The translations under genes and the position numbers were made by a program. This document shows positions 26,301-34,882 of a stretch of 64,000 nucleotides of DNA, in pieces. Where the stretch lies: the NCBI RefSeq assembly GCF_018476645.1, contig NZ_JAHCTB010000002.1, forward strand, positions 558,001-622,000, given 5' to 3'. How positions within the stretch are numbered: the stretch's first letter is position 1; every line of letters begins with the position of its first letter. The DNA comes from Aequorivita echinoideorum (lineage in GTDB: Bacteria > Bacteroidota > Bacteroidia > Flavobacteriales > Flavobacteriaceae). The notes below the pieces were generated by a model that saw nothing but the letters and a program-made list of their open reading frames with translations, did no database searches and was not told where the DNA came from.

Positions 26301-26323
26301 CACCATAAAATCAAACGACAAAA

Positions 26324-29149
26324 ATGAAAACTTTAGTACAATTATTTTTCTTTCTTTTTACTGTAATTTCAGTAGCCCAAAACGGCTCTATCGTTGGGAA
26401 ATTGACCGACACAGATTACAATAACGAGCCGCTTCCATTTGCAAACATTTTTATAAAAGGAACTACAAAAGGGGTGACGTCTGACATTGACGGACTTTAT
26501 TCCATTGAAAATGTGGGACCCGGTACTTATACCGTAGTGTACAGTTTTGTAGGGTATGAAACCGTTGAAATACCGAATGTAAAGGTTGTAGCCGATAAAG
26601 TTACGAATGTAGATGTACCTATGGGTGCAAGTGCGGCAGCCCTAGATGAAGTTGTAATTAAAACCACTACGCGCCGCGAGAGTGCGGTTGCACTTTTATT
26701 GGAACAAAAAAAGGCCGTGGGAATTACACAATCTATTGGTGCTGAAGATTTATCCCGCAAAGGAGTGGGCGATGCGGAAAGTGCGGTAACCAAGGTTACG
26801 GGTATTAAAAAGCAGGCCGGAATAAAAAATGTTTTCGTCCGTGGATTGGGCGATCGTTACAACTCTACTACTTTAAATGAATTGCCTTTGCCATCAGAAG
26901 ATCCAGAGTATAAGAATATTTCATTGGATTTCTTTGCTTCCGATATAATTGAGAGTGTTGGTATTAATAAAACATTTTCTACTCCAATTTATGGTGATGT
27001 TGCAGGAGCGAATATCAATATTGTAAGCAAAGAACTCAATGGTTCCGGCAGCTTGCAGTTTTCAATTTCTCCGGAGGTTAACTCACGTGCCATCGGCAAG
27101 ACCTTCCTTACAATGGATAACGCCAAGTATATTGGGAATATCCACAATGTTTCGGTTCCTATTAAAGATTTAGGTGTGCATTCTTTCGACAATAATTATA
27201 AGCCAGAAATGCAAAATGCGCAGTTGAACTCGAGCTACTCTCTTTCTGGCGGAAAGCGCTTCGCTTTGGGCGATAATAGCTTGAGCGTGTTTTTTGTCGG
27301 AAAATTTGATAACAAATATGAATTCAGGGAAGGAACTTCAGATAGGATCAATGCATCCGGAAATTACAGACAACAGTTTGACCGGACTGAATATATCTAT
27401 AATGTTTCCAAACTTGGAATGGGAAATATAAAGTACCGCTTCGCCGGTGGTGATTATATTGCCGTAAATAGTCTTTTCATAAAAAATAATGGACAAAGCG
27501 TTGCTGATTATTATGGCCTTAGAGCAGGTTTAACTGAAAATGACGAGCCTGGAAACCCCGTACGCGCGCTTATTAGAAGGCAACAAGAAAATGAAAACAA
27601 CCTTTTTGTAAACCAACTTCTTACCTCATTTACGCTTACCGAAAAATTAAGCCTGGAAGCCGGCGCTTCTTATAATACCATACGCGGTTATGAACCGGAC
27701 AGAAGAACAAACACGTATGTTATCGATGTCAACGAAAATATAGCACGTGCTGCTTCCGGTAGTGCGCTTAACAACAGATTTTATTCAAATCTTGAAGAAA
27801 ATGACCTTGCCGGCAAGCTCTACTTAGATTATGCCCTCAATGGCAAAAACGAGGACAGTAATAACAGTCGCGTACGTTTGGGCTACAATTATCGCGATAC
27901 CGATAGAACTTTCAACTATACGCAAATCAATTACCTTTTCGACAGCCCAGCCGTTGTGGATATTGACAACCCGGACACGTCGCTTTTCAATCAGGAATCA
28001 CTTAATGCCGGAATTTTCAGGCTTACCACAAACCGTGGCGATGGCCGTGATGGCACTGATCCTTTCAGACCATTTTCATATAGTGGTGATAGAAAAATTC
28101 ATGCAGGACTGGCCGAGGTTGCCTATGATTTTTCAGATAAATTTTCAGCGAATGCCGGGGTGCGTTACGAGCAAGTGAAGCAAGAAGTAACTTTTGATAC
28201 AAACCTTGCCAGCACGGACGATCCCAACACAGATCCTTCACTAATTGACGAAAATTTCATACTGCCAAGCTTCAACTTAAAATATAATTTCAACGAAAAC
28301 AGTATCGTGCGTATGGCAGGTAGTAAAACCTACACGCTTCCGCAGTTTAAAGAGGTGGCGCCATTTTTATATGAAGATGTAACCTTCAACAGTTTTGGTA
28401 ATCCTTCATTATTAACTGCTGAAAATTACAACGTTGACCTTAAATATGAATATTATTTCAGTCCAGGTGAAATAATCGCGGTAACTGGTTTTTACAAGAA
28501 TATCAAAAATGCGATCAATAGAATTGAAGTAAACTCTGCCGCAAGTGAACTTTCTTATGTAAATACTGGTGATGCAAATGTGGGTGGAATTGAATTCGAA
28601 CTCAGAAAAGACCTAATTCGATTTGCAGATGAGTCTGGAGCAGAAAAATCCTTGACATTTGGATTGAATGGTTCCTATCTCTATTCAAATCAAAAATTGG
28701 AAGATGTTCCTACGGATGATTTAACTGTTCGTTTTACGAACCAAGAAGATGAACTTGAAGGTTCTTCACCTTTGGTAATCGGGTCAGATTTAACGCTCAA
28801 TCTTAAAAAAGGCTCTACTGGAATTACCAGCTCGTTGGTTTTCAATTATAACAGTGAGAGTATCTATTCTTTGGGAACTGGTGGTGATGATGCCAATCCA
28901 GGATCGGGTAAAAACAATATCATGCTTTCATCTATTGCCACTTTGGATTTCATAAATAGAATAGCAATCAATGAAAACTTTGGAATCAAATTGAATATTA
29001 AGAATATCCTCGACCCGGAGTATAAATTGAGCCAGGACGTAAATAACATTGGGGTAGCAAATCCCACTTTGCCAGATGGCCAAGAAACCACAATCGAAAC
29101 GTTTAAACGTGGGGTATTGTTCAGTGCTGGAGTATCATACAGTTTTTAA
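26324..29149 (+). CDS. TonB-dependent outer-membrane receptor of the phosphate island
   Basis: The protein has 941 residues with a signal peptide (cleavage after VISVAQ). A CarboxypepD_reg-like beta-sandwich (about 22-105, GKLTDTDYNNEPLPFANI) is followed by a plug domain (about 120-250, with VFVRGLGDRYNSTTLNELPL and NINIVSKEL) and a 22-strand barrel ending in the aromatic YSF. No SusD partner follows, so it is not a classical SusC/D pair. It is coupled instead to a beta-helix lipoprotein. Six Pho-box-like repeats lie upstream, so the substrate is probably phosphate or a phosphorus-containing compound (inference). The leader ends CGACAAAAATG, complementary to the sRNA loop at 31201. Confidence 0.92.
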   Translation: MKTLVQLFFFLFTVISVAQNGSIVGKLTDTDYNNEPLPFANIFIKGTTKGVTSDIDGLYSIENVGPGTYTVVYSFVGYETVEIPNVKVVADKVTNVDVPMGASAAALDEVVIKTTTRRESAVALLLEQKKAVGITQSIGAEDLSRKGVGDAESAVTKVTGIKKQAGIKNVFVRGLGDRYNSTTLNELPLPSEDPEYKNISLDFFASDIIESVGINKTFSTPIYGDVAGANINIVSKELNGSGSLQFSISPEVNSRAIGKTFLTMDNAKYIGNIHNVSVPIKDLGVHSFDNNYKPEMQNAQLNSSYSLSGGKRFALGDNSLSVFFVGKFDNKYEFREGTSDRINASGNYRQQFDRTEYIYNVSKLGMGNIKYRFAGGDYIAVNSLFIKNNGQSVADYYGLRAGLTENDEPGNPVRALIRRQQENENNLFVNQLLTSFTLTEKLSLEAGASYNTIRGYEPDRRTNTYVIDVNENIARAASGSALNNRFYSNLEENDLAGKLYLDYALNGKNEDSNNSRVRLGYNYRDTDRTFNYTQINYLFDSPAVVDIDNPDTSLFNQESLNAGIFRLTTNRGDGRDGTDPFRPFSYSGDRKIHAGLAEVAYDFSDKFSANAGVRYEQVKQEVTFDTNLASTDDPNTDPSLIDENFILPSFNLKYNFNENSIVRMAGSKTYTLPQFKEVAPFLYEDVTFNSFGNPSLLTAENYNVDLKYEYYFSPGEIIAVTGFYKNIKNAINRIEVNSAASELSYVNTGDANVGGIEFELRKDLIRFADESGAEKSLTFGLNGSYLYSNQKLEDVPTDDLTVRFTNQEDELEGSSPLVIGSDLTLNLKKGSTGITSSLVFNYNSESIYSLGTGGDDANPGSGKNNIMLSSIATLDFINRIAINENFGIKLNIKNILDPEYKLSQDVNNIGVANPTLPDGQETTIETFKRGVLFSAGVSYSF

Positions 29150-29173: not shown

Positions 29174-29212
29174 TTAACCTAAACGTGACGAAACAACACA
29201 ATTGTTTCTTTG
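29174..29212 (+). promoter_or_regulatory. Two-unit Pho-box-like repeat and TTTG element
   Basis: TTAACC (29174) and GTGACG (29185) are 11 bp apart; TTTG (29209-29212) is followed by CACC, exactly as at 26297. Here 18 bp separate the second hexamer from TTTG, unlike the 24 bp of the other promoters, so this is the weakest member. Confidence 0.5.
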
Positions 29213-29239
29213 CACCAAACTTTTAAAATCAGACAAAAA

Positions 29240-30511
29240 ATGAAAAAAATTCTTTTATCCAGCCTTTTATTAGCAGCCTTAGCAATCTCCAGCTGCAGTA
29301 AAGATGATGATGGCGGAACACCCGAACCGGTAGCAACTTGTAATGACGGAATTCTTAATGGGGATGAAACTGCTGTAGACTGCGGTGGTTCTTGTGAGCC
29401 TTGTGAGATCGCTGCCGAAAAAGATGGTATTATCGCTGGACAGGACGATCCAGATTTAGATCCAGAAGATCTTAAAGGAGATGTTACTGCAAATGTGTGT
29501 TTAACTTCAGATACAGTATGGACTCTTAATGGACCACTAAGCGTTAAAAACGGAGCAACCCTTTGTATTGAGCCGGGAACAGTAATCAGGGCTACCGCAG
29601 GGGGAACTGATGTATATGTAGCTATTGAGCAAGGTGCAAAAATTGATGCTCGCGGAACTGCCAATTCACCTATTACATTTACTTCCAATGCCGGAAATCC
29701 AAGATCTGGTGACTGGGGTGGTATTTTGATTATTGGTAAAGCACCTATCAGCGGTGGTGGAACAGCTACAACAGAGGTTGTAAACTTAACCTATGGTGGT
29801 ACAGATGCAAGTGACAATTCTGGTGTAATGACTTATGTACAGGCATTATATACTGGCGCGCGTATTAACGGTGATAAGGAATTCAACGGTATCACTTTCT
29901 ACGGAGTTGGTAATGCAACTGTTGTTGAAAACGTAGGTGTATTCTTCGGTGATGATGATGCCTTTGAGTGGTTTGGCGGAACGGTAAACGTTCGTAATGC
30001 AATTGCTGTAAACATTAAGGATGATATGTTTGACTGGACACAAGGATGGACCGGTACTGCTACAAATCTTTATGGATTAAGAGAAGCTAGCTATACCGCT
30101 ATAACTGAAGACCCGCGTGGTATTGAAGGAGACGGTAACCTTGACGGACAAAATCCTGGAGATTCAGGTCAATCTAACCCAACAATCAATGGACTTGTAT
30201 TGATTAATGGAGCTCCTGTATCTATGGCAGATATGATCAAAGTACGAAGAGGAAGCGGTCTTACCTTAACAAATGGCTACGTTGCATTTGCAAATGAAAA
30301 TGCTGAGGCAAGTGATTTTATCGATCTATTGGACGGTGCTGGTGATGCAAACGGTGCAAACATCAATATGTCTTTAGTAGGTGATGCAGCTTCAGGATTG
30401 GATATTACAGATATTAAGTCAGTTTCTGGCGCAACAATCAATGTAACTGAAGGAACAACACCAACAGTTGACAGAAACATCTTTAACTGGACTGGTTACA
30501 GTTTTGAATAA
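29240..30511 (+). CDS. Surface lipoprotein with beta-helix-like domain, partner of the TonB receptor
   Basis: ATG 29240 gives 423 residues with a lipobox (LAISSCSK) and an acidic tether (DDDGG) typical of surface lipoproteins in Bacteroidota. A short cysteine motif, CNDGxxNGDExxxDCGG then CEPC (about 36-57), follows; the same kind of motif is known in other Bacteroidota surface proteins. The rest (from about 95) has repeats like VKNGATLCIEPGTVI and TYGGTDASDNSG that suggest a right-handed beta-helix. It sits 90 bp after the TonB receptor with its own weak Pho-like promoter. Its ligand is unknown; capture of a phosphorus compound is inferred from context. Confidence 0.8.
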   Translation: MKKILLSSLLLAALAISSCSKDDDGGTPEPVATCNDGILNGDETAVDCGGSCEPCEIAAEKDGIIAGQDDPDLDPEDLKGDVTANVCLTSDTVWTLNGPLSVKNGATLCIEPGTVIRATAGGTDVYVAIEQGAKIDARGTANSPITFTSNAGNPRSGDWGGILIIGKAPISGGGTATTEVVNLTYGGTDASDNSGVMTYVQALYTGARINGDKEFNGITFYGVGNATVVENVGVFFGDDDAFEWFGGTVNVRNAIAVNIKDDMFDWTQGWTGTATNLYGLREASYTAITEDPRGIEGDGNLDGQNPGDSGQSNPTINGLVLINGAPVSMADMIKVRRGSGLTLTNGYVAFANENAEASDFIDLLDGAGDANGANINMSLVGDAASGLDITDIKSVSGATINVTEGTTPTVDRNIFNWTGYSFE

Positions 30512-30531: not shown

Positions 30532-30567
30532 AAAATCCCCGGGCCAAAGGATGACCCGGGGATTTTT
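30532..30567. terminator. Strong bidirectional intrinsic terminator
   Basis: AAATCCCCGGG pairs with CCCGGGGATTT around an 11-nt loop, between the lipoprotein gene (+) and the convergent 119-residue gene (-). Confidence 0.88.
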
Positions 30568-30989: not shown

Positions 30990-31117
30990 AAAAATTAACC
31001 CTAATTAAACAATTACATAACGTTGAATTAACATTAAGCCTATAATACATTCATTATAAGATATTTAATAATTATAATATTCAATATATTCAAAAAATTT
31101 TATCTCTTAATGATTTA

Positions 31118-31162
31118 GTAAACATCTGTTTACGGTAAAGGAACATTGAAAGTTTTCCTTTG
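31118..31162 (+). promoter_or_regulatory. Pho-box-like promoter with no protein gene behind it
   Basis: Hexamers GTAAAC (31118), TTTACG (31129) and GGAACA (31140) are spaced by exactly 11 bp. TTTG at 31159-31162 lies 13 bp after the last and 24 bp after the middle hexamer, the same two distances as in the TonB receptor promoter. No ATG occurs before the terminator at 31227, so it should drive a non-coding RNA. Confidence 0.6.
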
Positions 31163-31166
31163 TAAC

Positions 31167-31254
31167 CGCCTTATAATAGGCAACATTTAAAATCGTTTAG
31201 TTTTTGTCGACTAGATTTTAAAAACTGGGCTGTCCATTTGGGCAGCCCTTTTTT
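31167..31254 (+). ncRNA. Candidate phosphate-regulated small RNA (~88 nt, three hairpins)
   Basis: Downstream of an orphan Pho-box-like promoter, the sequence can fold into three consecutive hairpins. The first is GCCT/AGGC with a 6-nt loop (31168-31181). The second is a 9-bp perfect stem, TTTAAAATC (31186-31194) with GATTTTAAA (31214-31222), extended by TAG/CTA past a bulge and closed by the loop TTTTTGTCGA (31201-31210). The third is a terminator, GGGCTGTCC/GGGCAGCCC with an ATTT loop and six T. There is no ATG. The segment 31196-31209 is complementary to 14 contiguous nt of the porin leader (31334-31347). The exact 5' end is estimated from the promoter. Confidence 0.6.
31227..31254 (+). 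terminator. Orphan intrinsic terminator (3' end of candidate sRNA)
   Basis: A 9-bp stem with one G-T pair, loop ATTT, then TTTTTT. No protein gene ends within 700 bp upstream on this strand, so it must close a non-coding transcript. Confidence 0.88.
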
Positions 31255-31284: not shown

Positions 31285-31329
31285 TTAACATTAAGGAAAC
31301 ATTAGAGACGTTAAAAATTGTGTTCTTTG
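31285..31329 (+). promoter_or_regulatory. Pho-box-like promoter of the porin gene
   Basis: TTAACA (31285) and GAAACA (31296) are 11 bp apart, and TTTG (31326-31329) starts 24 bp after the second hexamer. TTTGCTCC resembles the TTTGCACC of the two upstream genes. Confidence 0.65.
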
Positions 31330-31359
31330 CTCCCGACAAAAACTAAAATTCGAAATTAA

Positions 31360-32559
31360 ATGTACCGCACCAGTTGTCTTCTTGGCCTAATGCTTCTTTT
31401 CGCCTACACCGTACCGGCACAGGAAACCTCTTCAAAATTCGGCAACGGAATGGTGAATTATGTGGCGAAGGATAGTTCCTGGAGCGTAAAATTTGCCCCC
31501 CGTATCCAGTTTAGAGCAAACTCATTGTGGCTGTATGAAGGCACACAATTCGGCAAACCAGAGCAAGATTATCAAATTCGCCGGGCGCGATTAAAGTTTG
31601 ATGGCTTCGCTTATACCCCAAAGCTTCGATATAAATTTGAGCTTGGCCTTTCCAGTTTAGATATGGCTGGCGCTTCAGAATTTACCGCCAACGCGCCACG
31701 TATTATTTATGACGCCGTCATAAAATGGAAATTTTATAAAAATGTGGAATTATGGGCCGGACAGACCAAACTTCCCGGAAACCGTGAACGCGTAATTTCT
31801 TCGGCAGATATGCAACTGGTTGACCGTTCGGTTTTAAACCGGGTTTTCAATATAGATCGTGATGTTGGTTTTCAACTTCGACACTTCTTTTCAATTTCAG
31901 AAGAAATAATTATCCGCGAAATTTTTGCGCTTTCACAAGGTGAGGGAAGAAATGTGGTTACGGGAAACCTGGGAGGCCATCAATATACGGGCAGGATTGA
32001 AGTGCTGCCTTTTGGAAACTTCACAAAAAGGGGTGATTATATTGGCGGTGATATTTATAGGGAAAAAAATCCTAAATTGTCAATCGGCGCCACATATGAT
32101 TATAACGACAATGCCGTAAAAACCCGAAGTAATATGGGTGCGTATATGCGAAACGACATCGGTTTTTTTGAAACGGATATTTCAACAATATTTGTGGATG
32201 CCATGTTTAAATATGAAGGATTTTCATTTATGGGAGAATATAGCCATAGGCAAGCGGATAATCCCATAGCAACCAATAGTGATGGCACTTTGACAGGACA
32301 GGAGGTTTACGAAGGAGATGGGCTTAATCTGCAATGCGGTTATCTTTTTGATTCAAATTGGGAAGTAGCCGGAAGATATAGCACCGTACTTCCGGATACC
32401 GAATTTTTTCCCACTGAAAGCATCAATGAATATACCTTTGGAATTTCAAAATATATTGTGGGCCACAAGCTCAAATTCCAAACTGATATAACGTATGGAA
32501 CCATAGGAAATACAAGCAACTTAATTGAATACAGAATGGGTTTTGACCTCCATTTTTAA
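31360..32559 (+). CDS. Phosphate-selective-type porin (Porin_O_P family)
   Basis: The protein has 399 residues with a signal peptide (cleavage after TVPAQ). The barrel begins with WSVKFAPRIQFRAN and carries the family segment YQIRRARLKFDGFAYTPKLRY (shortened: IRRARLKFDGF). It ends with MGFDLHF, an aromatic terminal strand. This is the OprP/OprO family, which forms anion- or phosphate-selective channels. The PiT transporter follows after 79 bp with its own similar promoter, so outer- and inner-membrane uptake are paired. The leader 31334-31347 is complementary to the upstream sRNA candidate. Selectivity for phosphate is inferred. Confidence 0.88.
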   Translation: MYRTSCLLGLMLLFAYTVPAQETSSKFGNGMVNYVAKDSSWSVKFAPRIQFRANSLWLYEGTQFGKPEQDYQIRRARLKFDGFAYTPKLRYKFELGLSSLDMAGASEFTANAPRIIYDAVIKWKFYKNVELWAGQTKLPGNRERVISSADMQLVDRSVLNRVFNIDRDVGFQLRHFFSISEEIIIREIFALSQGEGRNVVTGNLGGHQYTGRIEVLPFGNFTKRGDYIGGDIYREKNPKLSIGATYDYNDNAVKTRSNMGAYMRNDIGFFETDISTIFVDAMFKYEGFSFMGEYSHRQADNPIATNSDGTLTGQEVYEGDGLNLQCGYLFDSNWEVAGRYSTVLPDTEFFPTESINEYTFGISKYIVGHKLKFQTDITYGTIGNTSNLIEYRMGFDLHF

Positions 32560-32638: not shown

Positions 32639-34882
32639 ATGGATAATATTTACTTAATGATGATTATTGCCTTGGGGGTTCTAGCCATCGCAGACTTGGT
32701 GGTAGGCGTTAGTAATGACGCTGTTAACTTCCTGAATTCGGCAATAGGTTCAAAGGCTATCCCCTTCAAAACCATTTTAATCATTGCCAGTATAGGCATA
32801 TTTATTGGCGCCAGTTTTTCCAGTGGAATGATGGAAGTAGCCCGAAAGGGAATTTTTGTCCCTGGCGAATTTTACTTCGATGAGATCATGATCATTTTCA
32901 TGGCTGTCATGATTACGGATATCCTCCTTTTGGATTTTTTCAATACGTTGGGCCTTCCCACCTCTACCACTGTTTCTATTGTATTTGAACTTTTGGGTGC
33001 GGCCGTGGTTATGGCATTAATAAAGGTTGGATACTCAGACACCGAAAATATTACCAACCTTGCAAAGTACATCAACACAAGCAAAGCTTTGGAAATTGTC
33101 ACGGGTATTGTTGTCTCCGTCGTGGTCGCGTTTACGGCGGGTAGCATTGTTCAATATATTTCGCGTCTTATTTTTACCTTTCAGGCAGAACCCCGGATGA
33201 AATATTTTGGCGCAATATTCGGTGGTATCGCGCTCACGTCCATAAGCTATTTCATTTTTATGAAAGGTTTGAAAGGCACACCCTTCTACGGAAGTTTTGA
33301 AGGAATTGTAGACGGAAATACGTGGCTTACCATAGGTTTAAGTTTTATATTCTGGGTAGTGTTCTCCCAACTTTATATGATGATTTTCAAAAGAAATGTT
33401 TTGGTAATCGTAATTGCCGTTGGAACTTTTGGTCTTGCACTTGCATTTGCCGGAAATGATTTGGTGAATTTTATAGGAGTACCTATGGCTGCCTACCATA
33501 GTTATGAAGCCTGGGTAAATTCTGGCGTTGCAGCTACGGATTTTGAAATGACCAGTTTGGCGAATGCCGTTCCCGCAGAACCCATTTTGCTTTTTATAGC
33601 TGGAGGCGTTATGGTTTTAACGCTTTGGTTTTCAAAAAAAGCACAAACTGTTTCTGATACGGAAATCGATTTGGCACGCCAAGGCGAAGGACATGAAAAA
33701 TTCAACCCGAATATGCTCTCCCGCTTGCTGGTAAAAGGAGGAACGCAACTCGCATATTTCTTTGAAGCCATTATCCCACAAAGCTTGCAGGCCAAAATAG
33801 ATAAACGTTTCGAAAAACCTGTTGTGGCACTTCCAAAACATAAAACGTATGAACTACCTGCGTTTGATATGATTCGTGCCTCAATAAATCTTACCGTTGC
33901 AGGGGTACTTATTTCTACCGCAACGTCTTTAAAACTTCCGTTGTCCACAACCTACGTAACCTTTATGGTTGCCATGGGTACTTCGCTTGCAGACCGTGCT
34001 TGGGGCCGTGAGAGCGCCGTTTACAGAGTTGCGGGTGTATTGAACGTAATTGGCGGTTGGTTTTTCACAGCATTTGTGGCATTTGTGGCAGCGGGAACAT
34101 TGGCGTACCTCATTTACATAGGAAGAGGGGCTATGATAGCCGTTTTATTGCTTCTTGCGATATTGCTATTGGTTCGCAATTATATTTCACATAAAAATAA
34201 AGTGCAGCTTAAACTGAGCAAATCAAAATTGAAGAAGACTGAAAGCAAAACAGTACAGGGAATTATCCAGGAAAGTGCCGAAAACATTAGCAATGTTGTT
34301 TCGCGTTCCAATAAAATCTATACTGATATGCTTCGTGGCCTCGCAAAACAGGACACCAAAAAGTTGAAGAAAAGCAAGAAAGGCGTCAAGAAGCTTAATG
34401 ATGAGGTTGAGGAACTTCGGGACAATATTTTCTATTTCATAAAAAATCTTGATGAAAACAGCGTCCGCGGAAGTAATTTTTACATAGTGGTACTCGGATA
34501 TCTCACCGATGTTGTACAATCGCTGGAGTTTATTTCAAAAGCCAGTTATAAGCACGTAAACAATAATCATAAAGCGTTACGATTCAATCAAATTAAGGAT
34601 CTTCAAGAAATTGATCAGCATTTGGAAGCGTTATTTAAGGAAATTGAAGATATTTTTGAAAAGAAAGATTTTATCAGAATTGAAAAAGTGCTTCAAAATC
34701 AAGATAAGATTTTTACGAGTCTTACTAATAAAATTGAAAAACAGATTGCCAGAACAAGAACTGAAGAATCAAGTCCAAAAAATACGACCCTATACTTCAG
34801 TCTTCTGTTAGAAACAAAAGATTTGGTCACTGCACTTATGAATTTGATGGGAGAGTACTACGGTAGCTATAAAAAATCATAA
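32639..34882 (+). CDS. pit: PiT-family inorganic phosphate transporter fused to a PhoU-like domain
   Basis: The protein has 747 residues, longer than a plain PiT protein (about 500). The first ~520 residues hold the two PHO4 repeats with the signatures GVSNDAVNFLNSAIG and GLPTSTTVSI in the first half and LKLPLSTTYVTFMVAMGTSLADRAWGRE (shortened: LPLSTTYVTFMVAMG) in the second. A long soluble loop (about 335-420) separates them. The last ~210 residues are helical (KKLKKSKKGVKKLNDEVEEL) and resemble a PhoU-type regulator. Import would use a cation gradient. A fused PhoU part could modulate transport or signal phosphate status. The Pho-like promoter supports induction by phosphate shortage. Confidence 0.9.
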   Translation: MDNIYLMMIIALGVLAIADLVVGVSNDAVNFLNSAIGSKAIPFKTILIIASIGIFIGASFSSGMMEVARKGIFVPGEFYFDEIMIIFMAVMITDILLLDFFNTLGLPTSTTVSIVFELLGAAVVMALIKVGYSDTENITNLAKYINTSKALEIVTGIVVSVVVAFTAGSIVQYISRLIFTFQAEPRMKYFGAIFGGIALTSISYFIFMKGLKGTPFYGSFEGIVDGNTWLTIGLSFIFWVVFSQLYMMIFKRNVLVIVIAVGTFGLALAFAGNDLVNFIGVPMAAYHSYEAWVNSGVAATDFEMTSLANAVPAEPILLFIAGGVMVLTLWFSKKAQTVSDTEIDLARQGEGHEKFNPNMLSRLLVKGGTQLAYFFEAIIPQSLQAKIDKRFEKPVVALPKHKTYELPAFDMIRASINLTVAGVLISTATSLKLPLSTTYVTFMVAMGTSLADRAWGRESAVYRVAGVLNVIGGWFFTAFVAFVAAGTLAYLIYIGRGAMIAVLLLLAILLLVRNYISHKNKVQLKLSKSKLKKTESKTVQGIIQESAENISNVVSRSNKIYTDMLRGLAKQDTKKLKKSKKGVKKLNDEVEELRDNIFYFIKNLDENSVRGSNFYIVVLGYLTDVVQSLEFISKASYKHVNNNHKALRFNQIKDLQEIDQHLEALFKEIEDIFEKKDFIRIEKVLQNQDKIFTSLTNKIEKQIARTRTEESSPKNTTLYFSLLLETKDLVTALMNLMGEYYGSYKKS

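Follow-up and report, generated by a model that had tools for sequence, protein, structure and literature searches.

MicF, MicA and OmrA/B are small RNAs (sRNAs) of enterobacteria that repress porins. To our knowledge, few sRNAs of Bacteroidota, the phylum of the Flavobacteriaceae that are common in the sea, have a convincing target. In Bacteroides thetaiotaomicron, GibS is described as a largely unstructured RNA of about 145 nt, induced by N-acetylglucosamine, whose 5′ seed pairs around start codons in a phylum without obvious Hfq or ProQ (PMC7366714). In Flavobacterium psychrophilum, the third stem-loop of Rfp18 is reported to pair with metalloprotease mRNAs, two of which fall without Rfp18 (PMC9723704). 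F. johnsoniae is described as naturally without Shine-Dalgarno sequences and tuned by mRNA structure (PMC6847099). In Riemerella anatipestifer, PhoPR is reported to rise in phosphate starvation, and its motif is compared by the authors with the ArcA motif; the terms porin and small RNA are absent from the main text of that paper (PMC9603813).

Here we present an RNA from a phosphate-uptake locus of Aequorivita echinoideorum, located in a stretch of 64,000 nucleotides that was analysed as a whole and to which we refer as the window. This RNA is probably a trans-acting antisense sRNA of the Flavobacteriaceae phosphate-uptake locus that lowers porin synthesis. Antisense sRNAs to a porin are a known kind of regulator. 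Like MicF, MicA and OmrA/B, the RNA is antisense to the region where translation of an outer-membrane porin mRNA begins; unlike them, it comes without Hfq, would pair from the predicted mRNA +1, belongs to another phylum and has no Rfam match. It resembles GibS, as that RNA is described, in being a Bacteroidota sRNA that would pair in the start-codon region, and the same description sets it apart by its three hairpins, internal seed and phosphate locus (PMC7366714). With Rfp18 and the other Rfp RNAs it shares the family, a strong predicted structure and conservation beyond one species; here it is the second hairpin that would pair, and with a porin leader, a distinction drawn from the description of Rfp18 rather than from its sequence (PMC9723704). 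New to us are the RNA family, the phosphate locus, the +1 pairing without Hfq and the depth of co-evolution. In the part of the open-access literature that was searched, no phosphate-linked sRNA against a porin in Bacteroidota was found.

In a family without Shine-Dalgarno pairing and a genome without Hfq, such a pair bears on how sRNAs find and silence mRNAs there. The RNA offers a target kept by evolution in 75 genera, defined pairing bases, and natural compensatory variants and absences.

The small RNA gene and its promoter

The RNA lies on the plus strand in the gap between a ywqK-like gene (minus strand, start 30950) and a porin gene (start 31360); the gap counts 409 bp, within one base pair of the 410 bp given in an earlier note on this DNA. 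The porin (31360–32559, plus strand; Pfam PF07396, Porin_O_P), a phosphate-selective porin and the presumed primary target gene, is the only PF07396 match in its genome and is followed by a phosphate transporter gene (32639–34882, plus strand; Pfam PF01384, PHO4). A TonB-dependent receptor gene sits 5 kb upstream of the gap. Between this receptor and the sRNA, 29210–30511 encodes a putative lipoprotein with no Pfam match, whose place is occupied by similar open reading frames (ORFs) in other Aequorivita; it is perhaps part of the phosphate-uptake cluster. A strong terminator-like hairpin (30532–30566) separates the converging lipoprotein and ywqK genes.

From a predicted +1 at 31167, the RNA would extend over about 88 nt (31167–31254), an assignment based on fold, terminator and covariance model, and would end at its own terminator. 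A 95-nt RNA folds at -31.9 kcal/mol against -16.4 for shuffles (sd 2.9; z -5.3) and yields the three hairpins that had been proposed. Hairpin 1 (GCCU...AGGC, 31168–31181) and hairpin 2 (31186–31222), which bears the antisense arm, are defined by the fold and by compensatory changes. The 9-bp stem claimed for the middle hairpin is borne out, and the 10-nt loop is not: beyond the stem the RNA bulges by 3 nt, pairs again over 5 bp (UAGUU/GACUA) and closes with a 6-nt loop, UUUGUC. Hairpin 3 with its U tract (31227–31254) forms the expected intrinsic terminator, namely 31227–31248 plus T6, identified by terminator scan, fold, RNAalifold and covariation. The scan alone proves little, with 2 terminator-like sites in 1.3 kb against 1.1 expected, and a combined sigma-70 and terminator consensus scan gave no excess above shuffles.

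No ATG occurs between 31160 and 31254, in agreement with the ATG-free stretch of 88 nt noted before. A small ORF was considered and rejected: of 184 loci, 126 have an ATG-started frame of at least 10 codons that opens within the RNA or close to it, the window copy being without ATG. A frequent frame among the sequences inspected starts in the 3′ arm of hairpin 2 and crosses the terminator, and a conserved peptide is unlikely because the terminator loop inside this frame varies by single bases.

The RNA is widely conserved. Of 28 genomes of the genus, 25 have a BLAST match to it, its own among them. A covariance model built from 26 sequences (23 of the genus and 3 from other genera) carries the search beyond the genus, as the earlier note had proposed, with matches in 137 of 397 Flavobacteriaceae genomes (99 genera) at E below 1e-4 and in 189 of the 397 (138 of 237 genera) at E up to 0.01; the 52 weak hits that make up the difference (E 1e-4 to 0.01) are uncertain and may include false ones. 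Class-wide, 7 of 395 genomes match, and we regard five of these hits as chance, four outside the family and one inside it (G676; G denotes genomes and L loci, G000 being the window's own genome), since the hit lacks the near-invariant core of the antisense arm, AGUUUUUGUC. We therefore count the RNA as confined to Flavobacteriaceae, as far as tested, and take the core-less hits as a caution about the weak family hits, some of which may be false. In G166 a second model hit was likewise without the core and was dropped.

The earlier note had let its claim depend on compensatory changes in the stems, and these are present. The alignment of the 26 sequences has 96.3% of its cells paired, and 40 are doubly changed where shuffles give 9.5. 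In 98 of 132 loci, near copies being left out and the alignment being fitted to the model structure, 92.3% of cells are paired (slid controls 19–51%) and 343 are doubly changed against 99 in shuffles. Every helix has at least one doubly changed pair across the 98 loci, hairpin 1 being the weakest with 77.5% of cells paired. Run alone, RNAalifold predicts the terminator and, of hairpin 2, the inner stem; hairpin 1 and the outer stem of hairpin 2 are not recovered. Within the whole window only a tRNA reaches the Rfam gathering score. At a permissive threshold 21 matches appear, none reaching the gathering score, and the best at the sRNA site is BjrC1505 with 26.9 bits against a gathering score of 50. 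The proposal of a regulatory RNA thus gains support from structure, covariation, an own promoter and terminator, and wide conservation, and a free-standing structured small RNA gene is strongly supported.

The predicted sRNA promoter (31107–31162, plus strand), assigned from sequence, phase comparison and published -7 placement, consists of units every 11 bp (TTAATGA 31107, GTAAACA 31118, TTTACGG 31129, GGAACAT 31140) and a -7 box TTTG at 31159–31162. That of the porin (31285–31329, plus strand), assigned from sequence and periodicity, has TTAACAT at 31285, GAAACAT at 31296, GACGTTA at 31307 and its -7 TTTG at 31326–31329. The last unit starts 19 nt before TTTG in both of these and in the TonB receptor promoter (unit 26278, TTTG 26297), so that the likeness to the TonB promoter described in the earlier note holds, in the form of 11-bp units with this common spacing. 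Lag 11 gives the sharpest periodicity, z 30 in 158 of 184 sRNA promoters and z 23 in 171 of 184 porin promoters, measured against letter shuffles with loci taken as independent and those without TTTG in range dropped; lags 22, 16–17 and 5–6 are also raised, less than 11. Aligned on TTTG, the sRNA and porin promoter profiles correlate at 0.48 for shift 0 and 0.61 for shift 11, which places the two promoters in one phase.

The PhoB box is known in the form of 11-bp direct repeats, and other regulators of the OmpR/PhoB family could produce like repeats. The proposed Pho-like control is supported at the level of sequence by 11-bp repeats in the phase of the porin and TonB promoters and by the Porin_O_P and PHO4 neighbours; this speaks for Pho control of the RNA and does not amount to proof. 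The motif core reported for the phosphate-linked regulator of Riemerella anatipestifer, TTTAACA, resembles the TTAACAT units found here (PMC9603813). Five response regulators of the own genome align over the PhoB profile at E below 1e-40, and none of them passes the PhoB cut-off. A scan of that genome with a porin-derived Pho-box pattern gave 14 sites, among them the TonB promoter with one mismatch and two exact sites, one at the porin and another that no ATG-started ORF of 80 codons follows within 260 nt. The scan did not match the window's sRNA promoter, whose repeat units have diverged, and it cannot list a regulon since the reversed pattern gives 15 sites.

Complementarity to the porin leader

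The -7 box, TAnnTTTG, is placed at -12 to -5 (PMC9723704), and from this position we predict that the RNA starts at 31167 and the porin mRNA at 31334. Read as its reverse complement, the hairpin 2 arm UUUAGUUUUUGUCG gives CGACAAAAACUAAA (31334–31347), the bases with which the porin mRNA is predicted to begin. The first sign of a target had been weak minus-strand BLAST matches some 100 bp downstream of the RNA; an alignment of 28 loci explained them by this complementarity of arm and leader. On the RNA, the antisense stretch CAUUUAAAAUCGUUUAGUUUUUGUCG covers 31184–31209 (plus strand) with its core at 31196–31209, as delimited by loci alignment, pairing counts and duplex energies; on the mRNA, comparison places the target in the leader from the predicted +1 to the AUG (31334–31362, plus strand). 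The RNA's target would thus be the leader of the downstream porin mRNA, which adds to the earlier note, where no target was named.

In the window the computed duplex runs on to the AUG or through the start codon, with a dimer energy of -57.7 against -32.1 and -7.1 for the two RNAs alone. The porin start ranks first among 149 ATG start regions of the window (-21.1; mean -9.4, sd 2.6), a set drawn from ORFs of at least 100 codons, spurious ones included, with no more than three ATGs taken from each.

The complementarity extends far beyond the window. In 132 loci found via the RNA region alone (107 from the family and 25 from the genus searches), GACAAAAA occurs within 400 nt downstream of the RNA in 124. 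Of the eight others, three have a porin about 3 kb off that bears the target and two are porin-less; the rest are L136 (G-U variants), L163 (both sides changed) and L023 (degenerate target). Contiguous pairs counted from GAC, with G-U included, have a median of 13 and a range of 8–17 in 123 non-redundant loci. The target adjoins the RNA in 74 genera besides Aequorivita, 75 in all. It begins at the predicted +1, 4 or 5 nt after the -7 TTTG, in 171 of 176 non-redundant target-bearing loci; in three the box reads TTTA. When named genomes were scanned for the core together with the target, at least 117 stretches were returned, and 80 such stretches among the matches listed are, we take it, from Flavobacteriaceae or from records named at order or class level only.

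We then compared the letters on both sides, numbering as position 0 the G that pairs with the C behind AAAAA. Mismatches among 124 targets number six at position 0 and seven at position 1. At position 2, where U-A becomes A-U, Watson-Crick pairs occur in 114 of 124 loci against a maximum of 106 in 2000 permutations, and at position 4 in 94 of 124 against a maximum of 76. Position 3 is at the edge (106 of 124, with the permutation maximum of 106 reached once), and position 1 carries little signal (117, reached 135 times in permutations). Positions 5–7, past most of the pairing, gave no co-change in the permutation test of the 124 loci. Native duplexes reach -21.9 against -18.6 with the leaders of other loci (n=123, p 7e-20, uncorrected for relatedness); this duplex-swap test and the permutations both ignore the relatedness of loci.

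Relatedness enters through a FastTree porin tree of 158 rows, 26 of 184 having been dropped for lack of a target, for no or a short porin, or for a porin of the far type; some rows come from the core plus target scan, in whose pattern positions 0 and 1 are set beforehand, as is position 3 on the mRNA side. Independent pairs on this tree change in the same direction at positions 1–4 together 10.8 times against 0.5 in the opposite one. Taken by position from 1 to 4, the counts are 1.0, 3.9, 3.4 and 2.5 in the same direction, 0, 0, 0.1 and 0.4 in the opposite one, and 0, 0.1, 3.4 and 3.2 pairs without an mRNA change, which is about half at positions 3 and 4. Positions 5 and 6 give 1.1 against 1.0 and 1.1 against 0, and no single position is significant on its own in this test. 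The most explicit case is L163, where the core is altered on both sides (UUUUAGUCA with UGACUAAAA): its native duplex has -21.2, against -10.9 and -9.4 with canonical partners. Complementarity to the mRNA start region is conserved, with both sides changing together.

Loci with lost or replaced partners

Three genomes of the genus (G001, G002 and G009) are missing the RNA. G002 and G009 have a porin with a leader that lacks the target, and both keep promoter remnants, AAGGAAACATT and TTATTTGCAT in G002 and TTATTTGCAT only in G009. As RNA and target are lacking together in these two genomes, the comparison suggests that the porin leader is conserved for the RNA rather than for polymerase or ribosome. 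G001 has a single porin-family match, of 26.5 bits and without target. Elsewhere, L023 has the RNA with a degenerate target, and G356 has the target with no RNA core found in 1.3 kb upstream.

Among the 397 family genomes the leader pattern is present in 90 of the 137 strong-hit genomes of the model, in 21 of the 52 weak-hit genomes and in 15 of the 208 genomes without a hit (Fisher p 7e-32 for strong-hit against no-hit genomes, weak hits omitted and relatedness uncorrected); since the reversed pattern is present in 49 of the 397, a background of about this size must be reckoned with. Five of the 15 pattern-bearing genomes without a hit were inspected: G040 and G140 carry the core of the RNA upstream of their porin, a PF07396 porin is missing from G398, G413 has the pattern on another contig than its porins, and the fifth is G356, described above.

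In ten Aequorivita loci (L005, L006, L008, L010, L012, L016 and L022–L025) a far relative of the porin stands in the porin's place behind the sRNA. Identity is 22–23% in three that were measured, L010 also being PF07396, and the target is kept in nine of the ten, the exception being L023. It is as if the coding part had been swapped behind a fixed leader.

Proposed mechanism and alternatives

What the comparison brings out is the RNA, its structure, its predicted pairing and its ability to act in trans. The most likely mechanism is that of a Pho-induced, Hfq-independent sRNA that blocks porin translation, where we infer the sign of regulation and the phosphate signal. Phosphate starvation would activate a PhoB-type regulator, turning on the RNA and the porin through their like promoters. 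The middle hairpin would then open, and the arm with core AGUUUUUGUC could pair with the first bases of the porin mRNA. A duplex over this short A-rich leader would keep the 30S subunit off and lower porin synthesis, so that the porin might be held back, or its level capped, in phosphate starvation; the purpose may be to limit how much porin is inserted, or to close the porin in prolonged starvation. With no Shine-Dalgarno pairing, the leader duplex should block the ribosome effectively. Hfq would not be involved, because none was found in the genome: the Hfq family PF17209 has no match in G000, and the same search is positive in 5 of 14 genomes. The RNA is not of the Hfq-dependent kind to which the porin sRNA MicF belongs.

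A more far-reaching proposal, which we put forward tentatively and hold to be somewhat less probable than its opposite, is that of a dedicated, co-evolved pair of one RNA and one porin in at least 75 genera, the RNA seizing the first nucleotides of the mRNA to stop or guard the translation start, as an incoherent feed-forward loop in the Pho response. Such first-nucleotide capture would be a translation-start control suited to bacteria without Shine-Dalgarno pairing and without Hfq. The RNA itself would add a post-transcriptional layer to phosphate uptake in Flavobacteriaceae.

The chief rivals are a wider target set and stabilisation of the mRNA 5′ end. According to the first, which we consider rather unlikely, RNA and leader pairing exist as proposed, but the RNA serves several mRNAs, the porin not being the main one. 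Two genomes (L360 in G186, L361 in G172) have lost the porin and retain the sRNA directly upstream of the PHO4-like transporter gene, and other targets may therefore exist. In the own genome, where other targets were sought as exact patterns only, CGACAAAAAY occurs at 25 sites, three of which touch a start codon or the codons that follow it, namely those in the porin leader, at the start of the TonB receptor and in a 132-codon ORF (L034). L041 and L053 have the pattern 46–53 nt before an ATG. These four sites besides the porin speak for a wider set; against it, only the porin site among the five extends the match, by CTAAA behind CGACAAAAA.

The TonB receptor site, CGACAAAAAUG (26316–26326, plus strand), overlaps the receptor's start codon and is a candidate second target on the evidence of pattern and duplex rank, its start duplex ranking sixth of the 149 start regions. 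Among the matches listed, 16 of 22 receptor leaders have it, 14 with CGAC and two with the G-U variant CGGC, two of the rows being from the same genome; the six remaining rows are unrelated receptors of 27–28% identity. In a cross-genus check of 25 rows the match was present only in two Aequorivita rows with this receptor. The receptor is thus ruled out as a family-wide target and is a possible extra target within Aequorivita. Its match was seen in no other genus of that check, whereas the porin match stands beside the RNA in 75 genera, and this favours the porin as main target. At L034 (G000:C11:196578–196587), CGACAAAAAT spans codons 2–4 of the 132-codon ORF, which is a possible further target.

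In the second rival, RNA and pairing are the same but the RNA protects the porin mRNA 5′ end from decay or otherwise activates the porin. That the pairing starts at the predicted mRNA +1 and, with its median of 13 contiguous pairs, need not reach the AUG in many loci would fit protection, and the likeness of the sRNA and porin promoters in build and phase would suit co-activation. However, the pairing can cross the AUG in the window, even a short duplex would occupy the place of the 30S subunit, and start-codon pairing is reported as repression for two Bacteroides GibS targets (PMC7366714). We judge protection unlikely, and repression remains the preferred reading.

The position of the RNA directly upstream of the porin on the same strand, as seen in most loci, could also mark a cis-acting leader, an attenuator or riboswitch of the porin operon whose inverted repeat hides the AUG in a read-through transcript. 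This is very improbable. The porin has its own promoter and -7 box between the terminator and the gene, and no Rfam riboswitch attains its gathering score. Moreover, in four genomes from three genera (G366, G143, G423 and G166; L355–L358) two or three opposite-strand genes, about 2.5–3 kb, part the RNA from the porin, which retains its own -7 box and target. With genes lying between and an own porin promoter, the RNA would not form a contiguous transcript with the regulated gene. Because complementarity is kept across the opposite-strand genes, the RNA can, as judged from these sequences, act in trans. The intervening genes presumably encode a carbonic anhydrase and a SulP transporter, and the gene behind the porin of G366 a PstS phosphate-binding protein, judging from the protein starts.

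That both copies are protein binding sites in DNA, with no RNA pair, is hardly credible: the core does contain the palindrome GTCGAC and both copies are near-invariant, but hairpin compensatory changes, native duplex energies and the location of one copy downstream of the predicted +1 of a short leader speak against it.

At the RNA level, the sRNA core ends in this palindrome, GUCGAC (31206–31211; GUCAAC in some loci); two sRNA molecules could pair with one another through it.
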